The notes beneath the pieces were generated by a model. It did not search any database. It saw only the letters and a program-made list of their open reading frames with translations, and was not told the origin of the DNA. Positions 1 through 12,531 of a DNA stretch of 64,000 nt are shown here, in pieces. Position 1 is the first letter of the stretch. Each line of letters starts with the position of its first letter. Source of the stretch: Variovorax ginsengisoli. Lineage in GTDB: Bacteria; Pseudomonadota; Gammaproteobacteria; Burkholderiales; Burkholderiaceae_C. Made by a program: the position numbers and the translations under genes. The stretch is from positions 62,001 through 126,000 of the forward strand of contig NZ_JAUJZH010000001.1 in assembly GCF_030486595.1 (NCBI RefSeq). The letters run 5' to 3'.

Positions 1-352
1 TGTAGTGCAGCCGCATCCGCGGCCAGGTGATGTCGCGCAGGATGCGGATGTAGGTGCCGGTCTGGAGGCGGAAGCGCCAAGGCTCGAACCAGCCGGCCAG
101 GTCGATGTTCAGCACCTCGATGCGCAGGCTGTCGCCGGGCGGCAGGCCGCGCTCGGCCAACTGCACCAGGTGGCGCTGGACGTCGCGCATGACTTCGAGC
201 CGCTCGGGCTCGCTGCCGTTGGGATGCGAGTAGGCGGCATCGGTGAAGCGCTCCGGATGCACGAAGACGACCGACAACGCGGGCGCGGTGGCCTGCGCGG
301 AGGCGCCGGCCACGAGCAGCGCGGCGAGCGTGGGAACGAGCAGTCGAGGCAT
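1..352 (-). CDS. DUF3016-like secreted protein (C-terminus cut by window edge)
   Basis: The reading frame runs from an ATG at 352 down to the window edge, giving about 117 residues with no stop. Residues 1-20 form a signal peptide (MPRLLVPTLAALLVAG, then ASAQA). The mature part contains 'VVFVHPERFTD' followed by 'GDSLRIEVLNIDLAGWFEP', the pattern of the DUF3016 family, small periplasmic proteins of unknown function. I chose the ATG at 352 over a GTG at 357, which is in another frame. Family assignment is from memory of the motif pattern; function is unknown. Confidence 0.7.
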   Translation of the reverse strand, partial: MPRLLVPTLAALLVAGASAQATAPALSVVFVHPERFTDAAYSHPNGSEPERLEVMRDVQRHLVQLAERGLPPGDSLRIEVLNIDLAGWFEPWRFRLQTGTYIRILRDITWPRMRLHY

Positions 353-420
353 GGCACCTCCTGCGAGGGGTTCGGCCCCTTTGGACAAGACGGCGCCGCC
401 CCCGGTTCCCGGCCGCTGCG

Positions 421-936
421 TCAGCGGTTGGCCCAGAACGCGCGCTGCATCGCGATCGTCTCCTGCGCGATCTCGGTGACCGGGCCGATCAGCTCCACCG
501 GCTTCTGGCCGTGGTCGAAGACATGGCGCGACGACACCCTCATCGTCGGGTTCTCGGCGTGGCTGCCGGTCTCCGCCAGCAACTCGGCCTCGGTCATCGC
601 GAACACCACGCGCCCGATGTTGGCCCAGTAGGCCGTTCCGGCACACATGCAGCAGGGTTCGACCGCCGTGTAGAGCGTGCAGCCCCACAGGAATTCGGGC
701 GTGTAGTTGGTCGCCGCCACCCGCGCCAGTGTGGACTCGGCGTGGTTGACGGTGTCGATGTTGCATTGCTCCAGCAGCACGGTCTCCTGGTCGGGGCCGA
801 CCAGCACGGCACCGAAGGGATGGTGCCCCAGCGCGACGGCGCGTAGCGCCACCTCGTTGGAGCGACGCAGGTGACGCAGCATCTGCGCGTGCGTCGGGCG
901 CAGGCCCTGGGGCGGCAGCGGGGTTGTTCCGGACAT
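421..936 (-). CDS. Nucleoside deaminase of the cytidine deaminase-like fold (guanine deaminase/TadA-like)
   Basis: 171 residues. The zinc site of the cytidine deaminase superfamily is visible: an HAE motif ('NHAES') and a PCxxC motif ('EPCCMC') about 30 residues later. The family hydrolyses the exocyclic amine of a base or nucleoside (guanine, adenosine in tRNA, or related compounds). The leading 25 residues and the 'AYWANIGRVVFAM' stretch look more like free-base/nucleoside deaminases than tRNA-specific TadA. It ends 68 bp upstream of the DUF3016-like gene and starts back-to-back with the protease gene on the other strand. Substrate cannot be fixed from sequence alone. Confidence 0.85.
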   Translation of the reverse strand: MSGTTPLPPQGLRPTHAQMLRHLRRSNEVALRAVALGHHPFGAVLVGPDQETVLLEQCNIDTVNHAESTLARVAATNYTPEFLWGCTLYTAVEPCCMCAGTAYWANIGRVVFAMTEAELLAETGSHAENPTMRVSSRHVFDHGQKPVELIGPVTEIAQETIAMQRAFWANR

Positions 937-1088
937 GGTTTCGAATACTCCTGGATGACGACAGGCAGAGGCTATTACTTTTGCACGGGCAGCGCCGTTG
1001 CGGCGCGGCGACTCGCTCGACCATTTGGCAGAGGGGCGCAGCGCCCGCCAGGGAGTACAACCATCGCTCCATTCCAGCGGGAAGACCG

Positions 1089-4000
1089 ATGGCCCAGCCG
1101 CAGCGATTTCTCGTCAAGATGCGAGCCCCCGCAGGCCAGGCCTCGGTGCAGCTGTTCGGCGCCGCCGTGCCGCTGCGCATCCGGCCGCTGTTCCAGAGTA
1201 TCGGCGCCCCGACCGGGCTGGGACTGGCGGCCGGCGCCAGCTGGCACATCGTCGAGCCGGCGCTGGCGCTCGAAGCCGGCAACCCCTGGGACGTCTGCCA
1301 CGCGATGGTCACCCAGGGCCTCGGCCTGGCGGGCGCCGCCCTGCCCGAGTTCGCCGAACCGGACTTCGCCCAATCCTGGATCACCGGCTCGCCCGAGGCC
1401 GAAGCCCTGGCGCTGACCGCGTCTTGCGAGCCCGTCGCCCAGAAGACCGGGAGCAGCGGCTATCCCGGCGCGGACGACCCCCTCTGGCACCAGGACGACG
1501 GCCATTCGGAGTTCGCCCGCGCGCTCGCGGACCTGACGCTGCCGCCCGCCGACCAGCGCGTACGCATCGCCCACCTGGACACCGGCTTCGATCCCGCGCA
1601 CCAGAGCCGTCCGGCCCTGCTCGAGACCGCGCTGCAGCGCAACTTCGTCGACGACCAGGCGCCCGGGGACGCCACCGACACGGCCTCGGGCGTGTTCAAC
1701 AACCTCGGCCACGGCACCGGCACGCTGAGCCTGCTGGCCGGGTCACCAGCCGGCGGCCTGCCCCGCCTCGGGGCGGCTCCGTTCGCCCGGGTGGTGCCGC
1801 TGCGCGTCGCCGACCGCGTGGTGCTGTTCCGCAACAGCGCGATCGCGCAGGCGCTCGACCATGTGCACGCGCTGTGCGCGACACCGGCGACCGCCGTCGA
1901 TGTCGTGACGCTGAGCATGGGCGGCCTCGCGAGCAGCGCCTGGGCCGATGCGGTCAACGCGCTCTACGAGGCCGGGGTGGTGGTGGTGGCCGCGGCCGGC
2001 AACAACTTCGGCAACCTGCCGACGCACCATGTCGTCTACCCGGCGCGGTTCAACCGCGTCATCGCGGCCTGCGGCGTGATGGCCGACCACCAGCCCTACG
2101 CCGACCTGCCGGCCTCGAAGATGGCCGGCAACTACGGGCCGGCGAGCAAGATGCGCACCGCCATGGCGGCCTACACGCCGAACGTGCCGTGGGCCAAGCT
2201 CGGCTGCGGCACGGTGGTCGACCTCGACGGGGCCGGCACCTCCGCGGCCACGCCGCAGATCGCAGCCGCCGCCGCGACCTGGCTGCAAAAGAACAAGGCC
2301 GCGTGCGGCCGCTACACGCAGCCCTGGATGCGGGTCGAGGCCGTGCGCCGGGCGCTGTTCGACAGCGCCGGCGACGGCGACCCGGTCAGGTTCGGGCGCG
2401 GCTGCCTGCAGGTCGTGAAGGCGCTCGCCGTCGAGCCCGAGGCCGAAGCCGCACTGAAGGCGGAGGCGCCCGACAACGCCTCCTTCCCGCTGTTCAAGGT
2501 GCTCACCGGGCTCGGCCTGCAGGCCCAGGCCACACCGGCGCAGGCGATGCTGGAGCTGGAGGCCCTGCAGCTGTCCCAGTGCTCGGCGATCGAGCGCATC
2601 CTGCCCGAGCCCGCGGTCGACCCGCTGTCGCTCACCGGGCCCGAACGGATGGCCGTGCTGGAAGCCCTGCGCAACCATCCGCGGGCCTCGCAGGCGCTGC
2701 GGGCGGCCCTGCAGTCGCATCCCGCGCCCGACCCGGGCCTGCCGATCCCGCCGCAGCGGCTGAGCCGCATCGAGGCCCTGCACCTGCAGCACGCCCTGGC
2801 GCCGCAGCCGCCGACACCGGCCGCGCGGCGGCTGCGCATCTACGCCTACGACCCCTCGCTGGGCCGCGACCTCGACACGGTCGGCCTCAACGAGACCGTG
2901 GCCGAGGTGCGCTGGGAGGCGAAGCTGCAGCCCGGCCCGGTCGGCGAATACCTCGAGGTGGTCGACGTCGATCCGGCCAGCGGCTGCTGCTACGCCCCGG
3001 TCGATCTCGACGATCCGCGCCTCCTGGCGACCGACGGCCTGCGCCCCTCGGAGGCCAACCCGCAGTTCCACCAGCAGATGGTCTACGCGGTCGCCATGCG
3101 CACCATCGACCATTTCGAGAAAGCGCTGGGCCGGGTGGCGCTGTGGGCACCGCGGGCCGGCCCGCAGTCCGAGCGCTTCGTGCGCCGGTTGCGCATCCAT
3201 CCGCATGCCCTGCGGGCCGAGAACGCCTACTACAGCCCCGAGCGCAAGGCCTTGTTGCTCGGCTACTTCGCGTCGAGCGCGGCGACCAGCGGGGCGCCGT
3301 CGGAATACGTCTTCACCGCCCTGTCGCACGACATCGTGGCCCACGAGACCACCCATGCGCTGCTCGACGGCCTGCACCGGCGCTTCCGGGAGGCGACCAA
3401 CCCCGACGTGCTGGCCTTCCACGAAGCCTTCGCCGACATCGTCGCGCTGTTCCAGCATTTCTCGATGGGCGACTCGCTGCGCGAAGCGGTCGCCCGGGCC
3501 CGTGGCGACCTGTTCCAGCCGACGCTGCTGGCCAAGCTGGCGGTGCAGTTCGGCAATGCCACCGGCCACTATGGCGCGCTGCGCCAGGCGATCGGCAAGG
3601 AGGTCCGGGACGAGGCCACCGGCCAGAACGTCTGGCAGCCCGCGGCCCCGCCCGACAAGGGCGACTACCAGCGCTCGACCGAGGCCCACGCGCGCGGCGC
3701 GGTGCTGGTGTCGGCGGTCTTCGACGCCTTTCTGAAGATCTACACGCGGCGTGCGCAGGTGCCGATCCGGCTCGCCACCCATGGCTCGGAAGTGCTGCCC
3801 GAGGGCGCCCTGCCGGCTCAGCTGGTGGATGCGCTGACCGAGGTCGCGAGCAAGGTGGCGAGCCAGATCCTCGGCATGTGCATCCGTGCGCTCGACTACT
3901 GCCCGCCGGTCGACATCACTTTCGGCGACTACCTGCGGGCGCTGGTCACGGCCGACCGCGACCTGGTGCATCACGATCCGCTCGGCTACCGGGTCGCCTT

Positions 4001-4646
4001 CGTCTCGGCCTTCGCGGCGCGCGGCATCTACCCCGAGAACGTGCGCACGCTGTCGGTCGACACCATCGCCTGGGAGCCGCCGCCGGCACCCTTCCCGCGC
4101 CTGGAACGCAAGCTCGCCGCGTTGCAGCTGAACTGGGACCTGCAGGTCGACCGCGAAGCGGCCTGGACGGACGCGCGCGCCAACGCCGAGCTGCTGCACG
4201 GATGGCTGGTCGATCCGGAGGTGGTCGACGACGAGGAGCTCGCGGTGCTCGGCCTGCGCCGCGGCGCGCCGGCACTCGTCTCGCTCGCCGGCACGGACGG
4301 CACCGCCGTGCCCTGCACGCTGCACGGCATCGAGGTGCACTCGATCCGCCCGCTGCACCGCGTCGGCCCCGACGCCCAGCTGCTGTCGCAGCTGGTGATC
4401 GAGCTGACCCAGTCGCTGCATGCCGACGACGGCTCCGGCATGGTGTTCCGCGCCGGCGCCACCCTGCTGTTCGACATCGGCAAGGGCGCCATCGCCTACC
4501 TGGTGCGCAAGCGGGTCGACCAGCCGGCGCGGGTCTCGGCACAGCAGGCGCTGTGGGCCGACCGCCGGGCGACCCAGCCCAACAGCTATTCGGGCCTGGC
4601 GACCCACGACGCCGAGCCTTTCGCGCTGCTGCATCGCGCCCACTGA
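1089..4646 (+). CDS. Dual-protease protein: subtilisin-like S8 domain fused to an HExxH zinc-protease domain
   Basis: 1185 residues from the ATG at 1089 (preceded by GGGAAG); the frame is open further upstream but without conserved content. Residues about 155-420 are a subtilase: Asp164 in 'HLDTGF', His208 in 'GHGTGT', oxyanion Asn in 'AAGNN', Ser385 in 'GTSAATP'. Residues about 640-960 carry 'VAHETTHALLDG' (His752, Glu753, His756) with Glu779 in 'HEAFADI' as candidate third ligand, the layout of a gluzincin (M4-like). The last roughly 200 residues are unassigned. No signal peptide or membrane segment is visible, so it probably acts in the cytoplasm. It is followed after 13 bp by an MBL-fold hydrolase gene, which implies co-translation. 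The S8 call is firm; the zincin call rests on motif spacing. Its target is unknown. Confidence 0.85.
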   Translation: MAQPQRFLVKMRAPAGQASVQLFGAAVPLRIRPLFQSIGAPTGLGLAAGASWHIVEPALALEAGNPWDVCHAMVTQGLGLAGAALPEFAEPDFAQSWITGSPEAEALALTASCEPVAQKTGSSGYPGADDPLWHQDDGHSEFARALADLTLPPADQRVRIAHLDTGFDPAHQSRPALLETALQRNFVDDQAPGDATDTASGVFNNLGHGTGTLSLLAGSPAGGLPRLGAAPFARVVPLRVADRVVLFRNSAIAQALDHVHALCATPATAVDVVTLSMGGLASSAWADAVNALYEAGVVVVAAAGNNFGNLPTHHVVYPARFNRVIAACGVMADHQPYADLPASKMAGNYGPASKMRTAMAAYTPNVPWAKLGCGTVVDLDGAGTSAATPQIAAAAATWLQKNKAACGRYTQPWMRVEAVRRALFDSAGDGDPVRFGRGCLQVVKALAVEPEAEAALKAEAPDNASFPLFKVLTGLGLQAQATPAQAMLELEALQLSQCSAIERILPEPAVDPLSLTGPERMAVLEALRNHPRASQALRAALQSHPAPDPGLPIPPQRLSRIEALHLQHALAPQPPTPAARRLRIYAYDPSLGRDLDTVGLNETVAEVRWEAKLQPGPVGEYLEVVDVDPASGCCYAPVDLDDPRLLATDGLRPSEANPQFHQQMVYAVAMRTIDHFEKALGRVALWAPRAGPQSERFVRRLRIHPHALRAENAYYSPERKALLLGYFASSAATSGAPSEYVFTALSHDIVAHETTHALLDGLHRRFREATNPDVLAFHEAFADIVALFQHFSMGDSLREAVARARGDLFQPTLLAKLAVQFGNATGHYGALRQAIGKEVRDEATGQNVWQPAAPPDKGDYQRSTEAHARGAVLVSAVFDAFLKIYTRRAQVPIRLATHGSEVLPEGALPAQLVDALTEVASKVASQILGMCIRALDYCPPVDITFGDYLRALVTADRDLVHHDPLGYRVAFVSAFAARGIYPENVRTLSVDTIAWEPPPAPFPRLERKLAALQLNWDLQVDREAAWTDARANAELLHGWLVDPEVVDDEELAVLGLRRGAPALVSLAGTDGTAVPCTLHGIEVHSIRPLHRVGPDAQLLSQLVIELTQSLHADDGSGMVFRAGATLLFDIGKGAIAYLVRKRVDQPARVSAQQALWADRRATQPNSYSGLATHDAEPFALLHRAH

Positions 4647-4659
4647 GACGGGACACACC

Positions 4660-5994
4660 ATGGCCGCCGCCAAGAAGACCCCGACGCCGAGCAAGAAGCC
4701 GCCGCGCGCCACGGTGCGGACCTACCGCCACGGCCTCGGCGACTGCCACCTGGTGACGCTCTACGGTGCGCGGAAGGCCAAGTACCAGATCATGATCGAC
4801 TGCGGCGTGATCCTCGGCACGGCGAACGCCGGCGCGGTGATGACCGAGGTGATGGACGACATCCTGGCCGCCACCGGCGGCAGCATCGACCTGCTGGTCG
4901 CGACTCACGAACACTGGGACCATGTCTCGGGTTTCGCGCAGGCCGCCGAGTCGTTCGCCAAACTCAAGGTCGGAGCGGTCTGGCTGGGCTGGACCGAGGA
5001 CCCGAAGGACGCCGACGCGAAGCAGTTGCGCGGCGAGCGCGACAACGCCCTCGCGCTGCTGCGGGCCGCGGCCGTCCGGATGCAGCTCGATGGCGGCGGC
5101 GATGGCGAGCCGAACCTGCTGACGTCACTGCTGGATTTCTTCGGCGCCGCCGCACGGACCACGACCGCATCGGCGCTGGAACTGGTGCGCGCCAAGGTGG
5201 CCCGGCCGCGCTATTGCGACCCCAAGGACCTGCCGGTCGAGCTCGACGGTTTCCGCGGTCGCATCTACACGCTGGGTCCGCCGCGCGACATGAAGATGCT
5301 CAAGAAGACGCTGCCGAGCGCCAAGGCGCCCGAGACCTACGGCATGGCGCTCGCGGCGGCCGAGCGGAGCATAGGCCAGGCGCTGGCGAATCCCGAGCAA
5401 CAACCGTTCTCGAATGCCTTCCGGATCCCGAGCCGGGTGGCGCAGAGCACGCCTTTCTTCCAGCAGCGCTACTGGAACGACGAGGCCTGGCGCCGCATCG
5501 ATGTCGCCTGGATGGACGACGCTTCCGAACTCGCGCTGGCACTGGACAGCATGACCAACAACACCAGCCTCGTGCTGGCGATCGATCTCGACGATGTCGG
5601 CGTGCTGCTGTTCGCCGCCGACGCCCAGGTCGGCAACTGGCTCACGTGGAGCGACTGCAAATGGCGTGTCGGCGGCAAGCCGGTGACCGGCCCGGACCTG
5701 CTCGCGCGCACCGTCTACTACAAGGTCGGCCACCACGGCAGCCACAACGCGACCCTGAAGGCCGGCGGGCTCGAGCGCATGACGGCCCTCGACGTCGCGG
5801 TGATCCCGGTCGACCACGCCATGGCGCTGAAGAAGAAATGGGGCGACATCCCGCTCGACGCGCTGGTCACCGCGCTCGGCAAGGCGACCACCGAGCGGGG
5901 CTACGTGGTGCGCACGGACGAAGAGCTTTCAGCGACTGCGAAACGGCGCGGGGCGCGGATGACGCGGTTGTATGTGGAGGTGGATGTTTTTTGA
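4660..5994 (+). CDS. ComEC-like metallo-beta-lactamase-fold hydrolase, partner of the dual protease
   Basis: 444 residues, ATG at 4660, 13 bp after the protease stop. The N-terminus is Lys/Pro-rich (residues 1-18), then 'TYRHGLGDCHLVTL', typical of the MBL domains related to ComEC/Rec2. The metal motif is 'THEHWDH' (His83, His85, Asp87, His88), with a later Asp in 'FAADAQVGNW' and a His in 'VGHHGSHN'. There are no membrane segments, so this is the stand-alone soluble form rather than a DNA uptake channel. Soluble ComEC-like MBL proteins next to proteases recur in bacterial conflict loci (for example the MBL and protease subunits of some AVAST systems); a role here is inference. Substrate could be nucleic acid or a nucleotide. 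Confidence 0.85.
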   Translation: MAAAKKTPTPSKKPPRATVRTYRHGLGDCHLVTLYGARKAKYQIMIDCGVILGTANAGAVMTEVMDDILAATGGSIDLLVATHEHWDHVSGFAQAAESFAKLKVGAVWLGWTEDPKDADAKQLRGERDNALALLRAAAVRMQLDGGGDGEPNLLTSLLDFFGAAARTTTASALELVRAKVARPRYCDPKDLPVELDGFRGRIYTLGPPRDMKMLKKTLPSAKAPETYGMALAAAERSIGQALANPEQQPFSNAFRIPSRVAQSTPFFQQRYWNDEAWRRIDVAWMDDASELALALDSMTNNTSLVLAIDLDDVGVLLFAADAQVGNWLTWSDCKWRVGGKPVTGPDLLARTVYYKVGHHGSHNATLKAGGLERMTALDVAVIPVDHAMALKKKWGDIPLDALVTALGKATTERGYVVRTDEELSATAKRRGARMTRLYVEVDVF

Positions 5995-6304
5995 GATGGC
6001 TCGGCGCTTCGAAGGGCGCCCGGCAAGCGGTGCGGGTGTGCAAGCGATCTCGGCGTCTCCAACGCCGATGCAACCCCAGCGTGTCAGCGGTGGTGGGCGG
6101 TATGCCCTGGGCCGGCCGTTGAGGCACCGCCGAGCAGCGCAGCGGTGCGCGGAAAAAGGGCCGCGCGTGTTTGAGCGAAGCGAGTTTGCGCGGACCCCGC
6201 GTACCGCGAGCAGCGCAGGGCAGCCGCGAAGCGGCCGGTGACGTCGGCCGGCCCAGGGCATACCGCCCACCGCCGACGCGCACGCCTCAGCCCCGCAGCC
6301 GACC
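5995..6304. other. Gene-free interval between convergent units, occupied mostly by an inverted-repeat element
   Basis: No convincing coding sequence is seen. Most of the interval is the bounded repeat element at 6092-6271. It separates the end of the MBL gene from the end of the ABC transporter operon, so it may also serve as a bidirectional terminator. Confidence 0.6.
6092..6271. repeat. About 180-bp element with perfect 27-bp terminal inverted repeats
   Basis: The left arm 6092-6118 begins GGTGGGCGGTATGCCCTGGG; the right arm 6245-6271 is its exact reverse complement over 27 bases. The interior is GC-rich with internal short repeats: 'CGAGCAGCGCAG' occurs at about 6131 and a near copy 'CGAGCAGCGCAG' at about 6207, and 'GAGCGAAGCGAG' lies in the middle. 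No open frame of note lies inside. It may be a non-autonomous mobile or extragenic repeat element, or a very strong bidirectional terminator. Copy number elsewhere in the genome is unknown to me. Confidence 0.7.
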
Positions 6305-7180
6305 TCACTCCTTGACCGACCCGGTCAACCCCGATACGTAGTACTCCACGAAGAACGAGTAGATGAAGGCCACCGGCAGCGAGCCCAGCAGCGCGCCGGC
6401 CATCAGCGGCCCCCACTGGTAGACGTCGCCCTGCACCAGTTCCGTGACGACACCCACCGGCAACGTCTTGATCTCCGACGACGAGACGAAGGTCAGCGCG
6501 TAGATGAACTCGTTCCACGACAGCGTGAAGGCGAAGATGCCGGCCGAGATCAGCCCCGGCACCGCGAGCGGCAGCACGATCTTGACCAGGATCTGCCAAC
6601 GATTGGCGCCGTCGATCAGCGCGCACTCCTCGAGCTCGGCCGGGATCGACCGGAAGTAGCCCATCAGGAGCCAGGTGCAGAAGGGGATCAGGAAAGTCGG
6701 GTAGGTCAGGACCAGCGCCCAGCGGGTGTCGAACAGCCCGAGGTTGAAGACCACGTTGGCCAGCGGAATGAACAGGATCGACGGCGGCACCAGGTAGGCC
6801 AGGAAGATCGCCAGCCCGGTCTGGCGCGCGCCCTTGAAGCGCAGCCGCTCGATCGCGTAGGCCGCCAGCACCGAAACCACCAGCGAGCCGAAAGTCGACA
6901 CCACCGACACCAGCACCGTGTTCCACAGCCATTGCGGATAGGCGGTCTCGAACAGCAGCTTGTGGAAGTGCGCGAGCGTCGGCGCGATGACCCAGAACGG
7001 ATTGCCCTCGCGCGACAGCAGCTCGACCTCGGGCTTCACTGCCGTGATCGCCATCCAGTAGAACGGAAACAGCAGCACGATCAGGAACACCACCAGCGGC
7101 AGGTACACCGTGACCGCCTTGCGCGGCAAGGTATCGAGGTAGCTCATGCCGACGACGTCGATCTGGCCGGATTTGCTCAT
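6305..7180 (-). CDS. Sugar ABC transporter permease (MalG/UgpE type)
   Basis: 291 residues with six predicted membrane segments, first at about residues 24-43 ('VYLPLVVFLIVLLFPFYWMA'). The cytoplasmic EAA loop is present as 'ELEECALIDGANRWQILVKIVLPLAVPG'. This is the second inner-membrane subunit of a CUT1-type carbohydrate importer. Its ATG overlaps the stop of the upstream permease gene in an ATGA junction, showing translational coupling. It is the last gene of the minus-strand transporter operon. The substrate is not shown by the permease itself; the divergent sugar-acid genes suggest a sugar, polyol or aldonate. Confidence 0.93.
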   Translation of the reverse strand: MSKSGQIDVVGMSYLDTLPRKAVTVYLPLVVFLIVLLFPFYWMAITAVKPEVELLSREGNPFWVIAPTLAHFHKLLFETAYPQWLWNTVLVSVVSTFGSLVVSVLAAYAIERLRFKGARQTGLAIFLAYLVPPSILFIPLANVVFNLGLFDTRWALVLTYPTFLIPFCTWLLMGYFRSIPAELEECALIDGANRWQILVKIVLPLAVPGLISAGIFAFTLSWNEFIYALTFVSSSEIKTLPVGVVTELVQGDVYQWGPLMAGALLGSLPVAFIYSFFVEYYVSGLTGSVKE

Positions 7181-8073
7181 TTTTGCCAGGCCCGTCTTTG
7201 AAGGCCGAAGTAGCTGAACATGATGCAGCCCAGCAGGAAGGGCACCATCGCGATCGCGATCGCCGCGCCCTCGCCCAGCGCGCCGCCCGAGATCGCGCGC
7301 TGGAACGACAGCGTCGCCATCAGGTGCGTGGCGTTCAAGGGGCCGCCGCGCGTGATCACGTAGATCAGCTGGAAGTCGGTGAAGGTGAACAGCACCGAGA
7401 AGGTCATCACCACCGCGATGATCGGCGTCAGCAGCGGCAGCGTGACGTGACGGAACTGCTGCCACGGTGTTGCGCCGTCGATCGCCGAGGCCTCGTAGTA
7501 CGAAGGCGAAATGGTCTGCAGCCCGGCCAGCAGCGTGATCGCCACGAAGGGCACGCCGCGCCACACGTTGGCCGCGATCACCGCGAGCCGTGCATTCCAC
7601 GGATCGCCGAGAAAGTCGATGTAATGATCGATCAACCCCAGCTTCATGAGCCCCCAGCTGATGATCGAGAACTGCGAGTCGTAGATCCACCAGAAGGCGA
7701 TCGCCGACAGCGCGGTCGGCACGATGTAGGGCAGCAGGATCACGGCCCGGAAAAAGGTCTTGAAGCGGATGTTCTTGTTCAGCAGCACCGCCAGCCACAG
7801 GCCCAGCAGGAACTTGAACACGCTCGCCACCACCGTGTAGAAGAGCGTGTTGAAGAGCGCCAGCCGGGTGACCGCATCGCCCCACAGGAAGATGTAGTTC
7901 TCGAGCCCGATCCACTCGCCCGGCCGGCCCACCTTGGCGTCGGTGAAGCCGAGCCAGGTGCCCAGGCCGAGCGGATAGGTCAGGAACAGCAGCAGCAGCA
8001 CCGCCGCCGGCAACATGAACATGAAGCCGAGGGCGTTGCGGCTGTTCTGGAACCTGGCCAGTCGCGTGGTCAT
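7177..8073 (-). CDS. Sugar ABC transporter permease (MalF/UgpA type)
   Basis: 298 residues, ATG at 8073. A first membrane helix occupies about residues 14-33 and further helices follow; the EAA loop reads 'YYEASAIDGATPWQQFRHVTLPLLTP'. It pairs with the downstream MalG-type permease, with which it shares an ATGA overlap, to form the channel of a CUT1 importer. It begins 11 bp after the stop of the substrate-binding protein gene. No unusual features. Confidence 0.93.
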   Translation of the reverse strand: MTTRLARFQNSRNALGFMFMLPAAVLLLLFLTYPLGLGTWLGFTDAKVGRPGEWIGLENYIFLWGDAVTRLALFNTLFYTVVASVFKFLLGLWLAVLLNKNIRFKTFFRAVILLPYIVPTALSAIAFWWIYDSQFSIISWGLMKLGLIDHYIDFLGDPWNARLAVIAANVWRGVPFVAITLLAGLQTISPSYYEASAIDGATPWQQFRHVTLPLLTPIIAVVMTFSVLFTFTDFQLIYVITRGGPLNATHLMATLSFQRAISGGALGEGAAIAIAMVPFLLGCIMFSYFGLQRRAWQK

Positions 8074-8084
8074 GGGCAGCGTCT

Positions 8085-9413
8085 TCAGACCTTGTAGTAG
8101 CGCTCGGCGCGTTTCTGGGCACGCTCTGCCGCTTCCTTCGGCGACTTCGACCCGCTGGCCGCCTCGGCCACCATGTTCGGGATGATGAAGTCGGCCGCCG
8201 CGCCGGCCGATGCGTAGCCCAGCTTGCCCTCGTAGCCGGCGGGCCGCAGGTTCTTGACCGAATCGCGGTAGGGTGTGTTCTTCGGATCGGAGGTCCAGAT
8301 CGGATTGGCCTCGTAGGCCTTCAGCGGCTGCGCCACGTAGCCGCCTGCGCCCTGCAGCCAGTCGTCGAACTGCGGCCGCTCCATCATGAAGCGCAGGAAC
8401 TCCTTCGAGGCCTGCGGGTACTTGGTGTACTTCATGATCATCTGGTTGAAGAACAGGTGCGACTCGGTCGGCACCCCCACCGGCCCGACCGGGAACACCG
8501 CGTGGTTGATGTCCGACGCCATCTCCTTGACCTTCGGATCGGGTGAGTTCTTGGCCGCGTAGTAGATCGAGATGCCGTTGTTCGTGACGCTGATCTGGCC
8601 GTCGAGAAAGGCCTTGTTGTTGTTCGGATCGAGCCACGACAGGGTGCCCGGGATGAAGTTGGCGTAGAGCTCCTTGGCATACTCCAGCGCCTTCAGCGTC
8701 TCGGGGCTGTCGAGGACCACCTTGTTGTTCTTGTCGACCAGCTTGCCGCCGAAAGACCAGATCAGCCAGTTGGTCCAGGTGCTGTCGCCGGTCGCGTTGC
8801 CCAGCGCCATGCCGCCCGGCGTGCCCTTCTCCTTCAGCGCCTTGTAGAGCTTGAGGAAGTCCTCGTTGTTGGTCGGGAACTTGTCGAAGCCGGCCGCCTT
8901 GACCATGCTCTCGCGGTAGACGATGAGCGAGCCCGAGGCCCCGAGCGGCAGCCCGATCCACTTCTTGCCGTCGGGCCGCATGAAGAGCTCGCCCGCGGGG
9001 TACCAGCCGCCGTATTTCTTGCCCAGGTATTCCGCCAGGTCGGTGACGTCGAGCAGCTTGTCCGGATAGAGGTTGGCGTCGTCGTTGGTCGACAGGATGA
9101 TGTCCGGCCCGGCGCCGGTGTTGGCCGCCACCGCAGCCTTGGGCCGCACGTCTTCCCAGCCCTCGTTGTCGACCCGCACCTCGATGCCGGTGGCCTCGCT
9201 GAAGCGCTTGACGTTGGCCATGTAGGCGTCGATGTCTCCCTGCACGAAGCGGCTCCAGCGCAGCACCCGCAGCTTGGCGCCCTTCTCGGGCTTGAAGGCC
9301 AGGGTCTGCGCATTCGCGAGCGACGAGAAGATCGCGGTGCCGACGCCGAGCGAGGCTGCGGCCGCGAGGCCGGCCGAACTCTTCAGAATCTTGCGGCGAT
9401 TGAAATCACTCAT
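8085..9413 (-). CDS. Sugar ABC transporter substrate-binding protein
   Basis: 442 residues. The N-terminus 'MSDFNRRKILKSSAGLAAAASLG' has a twin-arginine-like (RRKIL) export signal ending near 'ANAQT', so the protein is periplasmic. The mature part is a family 1 solute-binding protein: 'LRVLRWSRFVQGDIDAYMAN', 'FSEATGIEVRVDNEGWEDV', 'GAGPDIILSTNDDANLYPDK'. It delivers the sugar to the two permeases encoded immediately downstream. The Tat-type leader is less common than a Sec leader for this family. The bound sugar cannot be named from sequence. Confidence 0.92.
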   Translation of the reverse strand: MSDFNRRKILKSSAGLAAAASLGVGTAIFSSLANAQTLAFKPEKGAKLRVLRWSRFVQGDIDAYMANVKRFSEATGIEVRVDNEGWEDVRPKAAVAANTGAGPDIILSTNDDANLYPDKLLDVTDLAEYLGKKYGGWYPAGELFMRPDGKKWIGLPLGASGSLIVYRESMVKAAGFDKFPTNNEDFLKLYKALKEKGTPGGMALGNATGDSTWTNWLIWSFGGKLVDKNNKVVLDSPETLKALEYAKELYANFIPGTLSWLDPNNNKAFLDGQISVTNNGISIYYAAKNSPDPKVKEMASDINHAVFPVGPVGVPTESHLFFNQMIMKYTKYPQASKEFLRFMMERPQFDDWLQGAGGYVAQPLKAYEANPIWTSDPKNTPYRDSVKNLRPAGYEGKLGYASAGAAADFIIPNMVAEAASGSKSPKEAAERAQKRAERYYKV

Positions 9414-9450
9414 TCATGTCTCCTGTTGTTGAACGGCCGAAAAGGGAAGC

Positions 9451-10524
<1,074 letters not shown>

Positions 10525-10645
10525 GCACTGAAGTCCTGAAAGGTCGCGAGTCGACATCGGGCCATGGAGGACTCCACGCCGCAAGCGCGCAGTATTGACA
10601 TCGCGGACCGGCCGCGCATCAGGGCAAACCGTTAGGCATTAACCC

Positions 10646-11503
10646 GTGCAATATTTGTATGATGACCTGATAACCGCCTTTTCCTCATCCTCCGCCGTGC
10701 GGGTTTCCGCCACTCCCCAACCCCAGCCGCTGGTCGTCGACCGGCTGTCGGACCGGTTGGCGGCGCTGCTGGGCGCGCAGATCGACAGCGGCGCGCTGAA
10801 GGCCGGCGACCGGCTGCCGACCGAGCAGCAGCTGGCCACCGCCCACGGCGTCTCTCGCACCGTGGTGCGCGAGGCGGTCCACCAGCTCAAGTCCAGGGCG
10901 CTGGTGCAGTCGCGCCAGGGCTCCGGCGTGTTCGTCGCGCCGCCGCCGGTGAACCAGGCGCTGGCCTTCGACCCGGCCGTGCTGACCTCGGTGCAGGCCG
11001 TGGTGCACGTGGTCGAGGTGCGCCGCGTGCTCGAAGGCGAGATCGCCGCGCTGGCCGCCGAGCGCGCCACGCGCAGCCAGATCGCGGCACTGCGCCGCGC
11101 CCTCGCGGCCATCGACACCGCGGTGGCCGAGGGCCGCGACGGCGTGGCCGAAGACCTGGCCTTCCACCGCGTGATCGGCGAATCGACCGGCAATCCGCAG
11201 TTCCGGCTGCTGCTCGGCTTCCTCGAACAGTACCTGCGCGAAGGCATGCGCATCACGCGCGGCAACGAGGCCCGGCGGGCCGATTTCATGACCGCGGTCC
11301 AGAGCGAGCACCGCGCCATCTTCGAAGCCATCGCGGCCCACGATCCGGTGGCCGCCCGGCTGCATGCCAACGAACACCTGATCCGTGGCGAGCAGCGGCT
11401 GGTCGAAGGCGGCATCATCGATGGCCGGCGCCGCCAGGCCGCCGCCCGGGTCGCACGCGCCGCGCGCCCGGCGCCCGCACCCGATCGACAAGCAAAGCAC
11501 TGA
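10646..11503 (+). CDS. FadR-type GntR transcriptional regulator of the sugar-acid locus
   Basis: 285 residues if translation begins at GTG 10646; a GTG at 10697 gives a more usual N-terminus and no clear Shine-Dalgarno decides between them. The winged helix is at about residues 30-95 ('[21 protein letters not shown]'), followed by an FCD ligand domain with the metal-ligand pattern Asp...His ('[11 protein letters not shown]', '[13 protein letters not shown]', 'HANEH'). It is divergent from the ABC transporter and 11 bp upstream of the dehydrogenase gene. The sequence ATTTGTATGATGACC at about 10652-10666 could be an operator; if it is, the downstream start is the real one. It likely represses both units until a sugar acid binds. 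Confidence 0.88.
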
Positions 11504-11514
11504 AGGAGACCGAA

Positions 11515-12531
11515 ATGAAACTGATGATCACCGGCGGCGGGGGCTTCGTGGGGGCCCGGCTCGCCCGCGCCCTGCTCGCCCGCGGCACCCTGGACGGCCA
11601 GCGCATCGAGCGCATGGTCCTGACCGACATCGCGCCCCCGCCTGCCGACCTGCTCGCCGACGCCCGGGTCGAGGCCCGCACCGGCCCGCTGCTGACCCAC
11701 ACCGAGGCGCTGCGCGAGGAGCCCTTCGACGGCATCTTCCACCTGGCCTCGGCCGTGTCGGGCGAATGCGAGCTCGACTTCGACCTCGGCCTGCGCTCCA
11801 ATCTGGACAGCACCCGGGCCCTGCTCGATGCGCTGCGGGCCCACGTCAACGGCGGGGGCAAGGTCGCGCGGCTGGTGTTCTCGAGTTCGGTGGCGGTGTT
11901 CGGGCCCGACCCGGCGGTGCCCCTGCCCAAGCTCGTGGCCGACGACACGCTGCCGGCGCCGCAGACCTCCTACGGCACCCAGAAGCTGATCTGCGAGCAC
12001 CTCGTGGCCGACTACACCCGCAAGGGCTACGTCGACGGCCGCGCGGCGCGCCTCATGACCGTCACCGTGCGGCCCGGCCGGCCCAACGGCGCCGCCTCCT
12101 CGTTCTTCAGCGGCATCATCCGCGAGCCGCTGGCGGGGGTCGAAGCCATCTGCCCGGTCTCGCCCGAGGTGTCGCATCCCATGTCCTCGCCGACCCGCAC
12201 CGTCGACGGCCTGATCGCGGTCTACGAAGCCACGCGCGAGGCTTTCTGCGGCCGTACGGCGCTCAACCTGCCGGCACTCAACGTGCGCGTGGCCGACATG
12301 CTCGACGCCCTCGAGGCGGTGGCCGGCCCGAAGGTCCGCGCGCTGGTGCGCTTCGAGCGCGACGAGCGCATCGCCGGCATCGTGGCCAACTGGCCGGGCG
12401 GCGCCAGCGCCGCACGGGCCGCGCGCCTGGGCCTGCTGCCGCACGAGAACTTTGCCGATATCGTCCGGCAATACATCGACGACTGCGCGGCGCTGCCGAA
12501 CGCAGACCAGACCTTGAAGGGAATGTCCTGA
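11515..12531 (+). CDS. denD: NAD-dependent epimerase/dehydrogenase, D-erythronate dehydrogenase (DenD) like
   Basis: 338 residues. Extended SDR: the nucleotide motif 'TGGGGFVG' is at residues 6-13, and the catalytic pair is Tyr153/Lys157 in 'SYGTQK'. The motifs '[18 protein letters not shown]' and '[22 protein letters not shown]' are characteristic of the DenD group, which oxidises D-erythronate (and related aldonates) with NAD. The start has a good ribosome site (AAGGAG). Its stop overlaps the next ATG by one base (TGATG), so it is co-translated with the dehydratase. Paired here with an IlvD/Edd dehydratase rather than OtnK-type kinase genes, its substrate may differ from erythronate. Confidence 0.82.

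Follow-up and report, generated by a model that had tools for sequence, protein, structure and literature searches.

A subtilase-zincin fusion protein and a ComEC-type MBL protein in Variovorax ginsengisoli form a candidate protease-gated nuclease module

Introduction

In the Hachiman system HamMAB and in AVAST type 1, a ComEC-like metallo-β-lactamase (MBL) protein with two insertions, HamM or Avs1a, is encoded beside a protease gene and is activated when the partner protease cuts the insertion loops; activated HamM is a DNase (PMC12799240, main text). The proteases of these systems are trypsin-like and are fused to defence enzymes such as HamA, and the nuclease gene typically lies upstream. 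In Canu (CanABC), as the same text describes it, the gene for the gated MBL nuclease lies downstream of a protease gene, no known sensor system is attached, and the nuclease is activated by a caspase complex, made up of a caspase with an Ig-like domain and its partner CanB. The main text adds that further MBL homologues accompany "other diverse" protease families, which it leaves unnamed. Here we describe a two-gene locus in a 64,000-nucleotide stretch of DNA (the window, positions 62001-126000 of contig C1 in the 7.8-Mb genome of the soil bacterium Variovorax ginsengisoli), in which a subtilase and a zincin share one chain, P0001, and an MBL protein, P0002, is encoded directly behind it.

1089..4646, + strand: pro-subtilisin plus zincin fusion protein P0001, 1185 aa (open reading frame [ORF] translation)
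4660..5994, + strand: ComEC-type MBL-fold protein P0002, 444 aa, predicted gated pro-nuclease (ORF, fold match)

The pair resembles HamM and Avs1a in having a ComEC-like MBL with two insertions beside a protease gene, and differs from them in that a single protein joins subtilase and zincin, the MBL gene lies downstream and we saw no sensor. It shares with Canu the order of protease and MBL genes, whereas its upstream protein is an S8-zincin fusion on which the caspase models found no match, and Canu was rejected for the pair. Among ORFs read by eye in window positions 1-12000 and the 10 kb upstream, we saw neither a sensor gene nor a STAND gene (the neighbours were not scanned with profiles). 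The literature searched, in which PMC12799240, taken without its supplement, was the only relevant paper, held no published description of an S8-zincin-MBL arrangement. To that extent the view of the initial annotation, that no system of this kind had been described, stands; the mention of "other diverse" proteases qualifies it. Because of that mention, the cassette probably adds a variant to the protease-gated nuclease modules and does not introduce a new principle.

Results

Two complete protease motifs in one chain

1089..1367, + strand: propeptide-like region of a subtilisin, predicted, about residues 1-93, end inferred
1557..2384, + strand: Peptidase_S8 catalytic domain (PF00082), residues 157-432, with Asp164, His208 and Ser385
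2817..4643, + strand: zincin unit, residues 577-1185, the part common to single- and double-zincin relatives
3342..3425, + strand: HETTH (residues 752-756) to the third-ligand Glu779, then Asp783, conserved in 84 of 84 chains

The N-terminal part of P0001 belongs to peptidase family S8. PF00082 matched it at 76.4 bits (cut-off, 21.8), the Asp-His-Ser triad is complete (HLDTG for Asp164, NNLGHGTG for His208 and GTSAATP for Ser385), and residues 3-451 of the predicted model match the pro-subtilisin fold. Compared with the subtilisins of that family, the chain is fused to a 600-residue zincin unit and lacks a signal peptide as judged by eye, no hydrophobic segment being seen at the N terminus (no signal-peptide program was run). 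HETTH begins at residue 752, 367 residues past Ser385, and EAFAD supplies Glu779.

Conservation was read from 84 aligned S8-zincin chains, the window chain included (77 clusters at 90% identity). Asp164 and His208 are identical in all 84 chains and all 77 clusters, as are H752, E753, H756, E779 and D783; Ser385, and with it the full triad, is kept in 83 of the 84 (76 of 77 clusters), and His867 is conserved to the same extent (83 chains, 76 clusters). Because of this near-invariance, the occurrence of both complete protease motifs in one chain is real and not due to chance. In locus L081, the sole case among the 84, an Asp is aligned at the Ser385 position, possibly through an alignment slip.

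The zincin unit is predicted to be thermolysin-like. Its motifs lie in consecutive helices predicted at 747-762 and 772-791, so that HExxH is followed by a third-ligand Glu in the next helix, the gluzincin pattern. Like the thermolysin-like gluzincins of families M4 and M36, the unit has HExxH, a Glu 27 residues on in ExxxD and a later conserved His, His867; unlike them, it has no Pfam match at an E value of ≤0.01, M4 and M36 included. At that threshold M4 matched 2 and M36 matched 1 of 60 zincin members, and the sole M4 match in the source genome was a gene on contig C65. An hhalign comparison with three M4 proteins gave a weak profile match (Prob 32.6, E 4.7e-4). The fold matches listed for the full-chain model are filled by the S8 domain, so the zincin part is not visible among them.

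A ComEC-type MBL protein related to defence MBLs

4906..4923, + strand: MBL metal motif HEHWDH, residues 83-88; T82, H83, H85, D87 and H88 invariant in 62 members
4990..5235, + strand: insertion 1, about residues 111-192, bounds inferred from strands (predicted local distance difference test [pLDDT], conservation)
5284..5553, + strand: insertion 2, about residues 209-298, bounds inferred (pLDDT, conservation)

P0002 shows three features expected of a gated pro-nuclease: a ComEC-type MBL fold, an intact metal motif and two insertions. The nearest solved fold of its model is the ComEC nuclease domain, than which it is longer by ~180 residues in two regions; its MBL motifs are THEHWDH at residues 82-88 and VGHHGS at 356. 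Insertion 1 contains a lower-confidence stretch (141-170) with a conserved FFG (160-162) and pLDDT blocks of 65, 75 and 79, and insertion 2 contains another (221-290) with conserved Y227, P249, F250, W277 and R278. These two regions of lower pLDDT suggest that the insertions are flexible.

In the MBL alignment (A3: P0002, 44 of 60 loci and 17 of 120 listed matches), PADLOC LmuA matched 62 of 62 family members and NCBIfam Avs1a matched 61 of 62 (E ≤ 1e-3), which supports a kinship of the window MBL with defence MBLs. P0002 itself scored 37.5 bits against LmuA, over residues 18-109 and 89 of 345 model positions, and 20.6 bits against Avs1a, far below the 420-bit cut-off; AVAST type 1 was rejected for the pair on that score. 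Lamassu combines the SMC-like ATPase LmuB with LmuA effectors. The window MBL matches LmuA, and one relative locus has an LmuB-like gene upstream; at the window pair, however, no LmuB was seen by eye and the LmuA match is partial, and membership in Lamassu was examined and found unsupported.

These results agree with most of what the initial annotation had read from the letters of the window: a 1185-residue chain with the S8 triad, HETTH and downstream Glu at the residues given above, no signal peptide, and a ComEC-like MBL gene with THEHWDH 13 bp downstream (the gap is 4647-4659, both genes on one strand). Its suggestion of kinship with defence and conflict loci such as AVAST type 1 is borne out at the level of the MBL family and fails for AVAST type 1 itself.

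The zincin, not the subtilase, is the stable partner of the MBL

A contig scan gave 416 relatives, of which the best 80 were kept, all S8-zincin chains; by record title, these 80 come from Alpha-, Beta-, Gamma- and Deltaproteobacteria, Acidobacteria, Planctomycetes, Trueperaceae, Verrucomicrobia and others. In 60 of these 80 loci (56 of 75 when counted by 90% clusters; 4 were not checkable), the next gene 3', in the same orientation, encodes the MBL. We also examined 20 loci with zincin units that lack S8 in the chain (6 chosen plasmid regions and 14 genome regions). The MBL gene is adjacent in 17 of these, and 10 have a gene for a patatin phospholipase on the same strand, at most about one gene away. 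Beside the S8-zincin loci, patatin matched strongly in 3 of 80 (L010, L013 and L038) and weakly in 2.

Searching the order with the zincin alignment gave matches in 33 of 347 genomes, from which we took 16 places, namely, all strong ones new to the set and one weak one. MBL genes are present in 12 of the 15 strong loci: in all 5 with S8 chains and in 7 of the 10 without S8, 4 of which have patatin. Two of the five S8 loci are the same DNA as L050 and L078, so that the MBL is present in 10 of the 13 loci that are new. In 15 control regions taken from carrier genomes, neither a zincin nor an MBL of this family was present, and patatin gave a single weak match. Distances between zincins and between MBLs were correlated (r = 0.905, n = 80; S8 loci only, r = 0.872, n = 64); after thinning of near-copies to 69 rows, r was 0.885, a value that still includes shared vertical descent, against at most 0.315 in shuffles. 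No third conserved gene was found in the 80 S8-zincin loci: any other family occurs in at most 13 of 80, with no fixed place outside close relatives (ORFs of <90 aa were not called).

The zincin unit occurs in several architectures. With residues 560-1185 as the query of a protein search, 6393 of the 7994 candidates scored were matches, and PF00082 was present in 17 of 120 matches listed. Each of eight proteins read without PF00082 has two copies of the unit, seven of them aligned and confirmed by profile. The eighth, P0028 (2069 aa), joins a double zincin to a region with precomputed Pfam AAA-type domains, which we take from the domain names to be STAND-like; PADLOC gave no match to P0028, and fusions longer than it would escape the length limit of the search. 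In a tree that omits 5 of 122 units, 11 double zincins, two of which are identical, have their N and C copies on opposite sides of one branch, as expected from a single duplication; the HExxH Glu is missing from the N copy in 4 of the 11. The S8 label changes three times on this tree, and the S8 fusion may have a single origin. Alignment A2 comprised 53 of the 80 loci and 13 proteins, and alignment A4 comprised 60 units.

On a Hymenobacter plasmid, at one relative locus, the gene directly upstream of the zincin-MBL pair matches LmuB (E 3.9e-24). In G719, a genome of the same genus, a single zincin-MBL pair lies directly behind a double-zincin-MBL pair (L186, 13487-16848). Thus, zincin and MBL form a wider core that is also found without a subtilase: patatin often accompanies it, an LmuB-type ATPase precedes it in one case, and some loci have a duplicated zincin. 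The stable partner of the MBL across architectures is the zincin, not the subtilase.

Other companions are rarer. An additional patatin is annotated on the opposite strand at a zincin locus of a Deinococcus plasmid, L121 has a phospholipase D (PLD)-like neighbour, and in L166 a second, shorter MBL protein (6676-7668; PDC-M48B model, E 6.4e-34) lies upstream of a patatin-zincin-MBL set. The zincin gene of L168 (8734-13488) instead adjoins a gene for a 967-aa protein with Amidase_2 and caspase domains, and no MBL of the window family was matched there. A separate subtilase near zincin-MBL in L222 was not used (weak match of 6.4e-15, an ORF without the searched motifs and another ORF between).

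The cassette is accessory

416..6067, no strand: empty-site stretch, missing between matching flanks in the same-genus genome G719
421..936, - strand: deaminase-like ORF, divergent neighbour, named by eye, inside the variable stretch

Of 101 genomes of the genus, 2 have the full chain and 4 have double zincins; in a family sample of 299 genomes, the full chain is again present in 2 (the source genome is counted in both samples). The second carrier within the genus, Variovorax sp. J22P271 (G695), has the pair, and relative to its copy the ratio of nonsynonymous to synonymous substitution rates (dN/dS) is 0.143 for the protease and 0.101 for the MBL. In G719, matches end at window position 415 and resume at 6068, 14 bp apart (L159). 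Five of seven related sites have the flanks close together and no pair (gaps of 14, 122, 1145, 154 and 204 bp), one retains the deaminase gene without the pair, and one is uninformative. The cassette is therefore accessory, with patchy presence and empty sites.

Relatives of the chain occur in 60 of 72,556 plasmid records (5 over 80% of the length) and relatives of the MBL in 27. In eight plasmid regions read, SIR2 proteins flank one S8-zincin-MBL copy, a CBASS cyclase is near one single-zincin copy, and a DEAD helicase with DUF1837 and a restriction endonuclease are near another. A viral origin was rejected: 65 viral stretches fit a pattern and none codes for a relative by tblastn, and phage records matching numbered 2 of 50,697, each over less than half of the query.

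Neighbouring genes were sampled and scanned with PADLOC (E ≤ 1e-10), in a small sample that counts families rather than genes. Neighbours of S8-zincin-MBL loci (134 of 461 genes sampled) gave 123 families, with RdrB (in two members), MTase_II, PD-T4-6, mad6, BrxHI and LmuA among the 25 listed; neighbours of other zincin loci (150 of 168) gave 33, with PtuA, PtuB, LmuA and REase models among the 25 listed; control neighbours (140 of 227) gave 21, led by RtcR (8.9e-91) and including BrxHI, DpdF, Csa3 and ABC-type models. The neighbourhoods of zincin-MBL loci thus lean towards defence.

Proposed mechanism and alternatives

We give an even chance to the reading in which the cassette is an anti-phage suicide switch. 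The MBL would be a nuclease kept inactive by its two insertions, and phage infection would trigger self-destruction as the zincin cuts the insertion loops and releases the DNase. That a protease of the chain would cut these loops is suggested by the plan that the window MBL shares with HamM and Avs1a (PMC12799240, main text), and our candidate cutter is the zincin, since in single- and double-zincin loci it is the zincin, rather than the subtilase, that the MBL is found with. The initial annotation had proposed that one protease might process the other; in light of the same paper, we favour the MBL as substrate instead. The subtilase may stand where other architectures have patatin or a second zincin, and it would then serve either as an extra effector or as the trigger of the zincin. 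The LmuB match and the AAA-type domains among relatives suggest that sensing could be supplied in different ways. A bolder version, which we hold only tentatively, is an undescribed, widespread immunity class in which a one-chain cascade of serine protease and metalloprotease would free the locked DNase in two steps, the zincin-MBL core swapping subtilase, patatin, second zincin, LmuB and STAND-like ATPase.

Several observations weigh against a suicide switch. MBL is not found behind 20 of the 80 S8-zincin loci, 5 of which have <400 nt left and 15 of which have at least 800 nt and no MBL. Read by eye, the genes around the window pair are metabolic genes, two sets of transporter genes and a deaminase-like ORF, with no obvious defence island. 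Support for the predicted zincin fold comes from motifs, helix predictions and profile matches that are weak. The initial annotation had proposed to judge the pair by co-occurrence of the two genes and by location in defence islands; co-occurrence and patchiness were found, and an island in the source genome was not evident. The same 15 loci and metabolic neighbours, together with the intracellular serine protease that is the top PDB match to the S8 sequence, would suit an intracellular proteolysis or stress enzyme unrelated to phage, its chain degrading or maturing host proteins and the MBL serving as accessory hydrolase. We consider this unlikely in view of the very patchy distribution, empty sites and plasmid copies, the kinship of the MBL with defence MBLs, the LmuB match beside one relative and the AAA-type domains fused to another.

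A defence module in which the subtilase cuts the MBL, the zincin being a scaffold or second effector, would account for the retention of the S8 triad and would parallel the trypsin-like serine proteases that do the equivalent job in HamMAB and AVAST (PMC12799240, main text). We judge it improbable: zincin ligands are invariant, and the MBL stays with no-S8 zincin chains in both sets of loci (a separate nearby S8 gene was sought in the second, order-wide set only). Also improbable is an attack on membrane lipids, in which the MBL would cleave lipid phosphodiesters rather than DNA, alongside the lipid enzymes (patatin, PLD and lipase) of relatives, and the proteases would be maturation enzymes. 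A peptide-maturation cassette that processes a small product in the manner of PatA/PatG seems very improbable: the S8 part matches the PatA/PatG model weakly (34.9 bits; cut-off, 421) and the maturation protease PagA ranks 49 among its fold matches, but no further gene family is constant in the 80 loci, where a short precursor would have fallen below the ORF size called.

Should a suicide switch be confirmed, the release of a locked nuclease by proteolysis, for which trypsin-like proteases and a caspase are the cases shown to date (PMC12799240, main text), would also be built on a metalloprotease core with exchangeable partner enzymes and a scattered distribution across many phyla. Natural variants with patatin, a second zincin or LmuB offer comparisons.

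Gene calls and minor observations

The genes for P0001 and P0002 are each single copy in the source genome. The P0001 start at 1089 is consistent with relatives such as P0005; the frame is also open further 5' (longer ORFs, e.g., from TTG at 924). L036 and L077 encode S8-zincin chains of 1502 and 1510 aa with ~300 additional C-terminal residues and without an MBL gene. A 9.5-kb unannotated fecal "Bacteriophage sp." record (MT836994.1) has a stretch, 4318-5880, that is 39.5% identical to the window zincin unit. The insertion site before the ABC transporter genes seems to vary repeatedly; in L015 (14901-17061) and L159 (1687-3848), ~2.2 kb without a match to the window precedes those genes.
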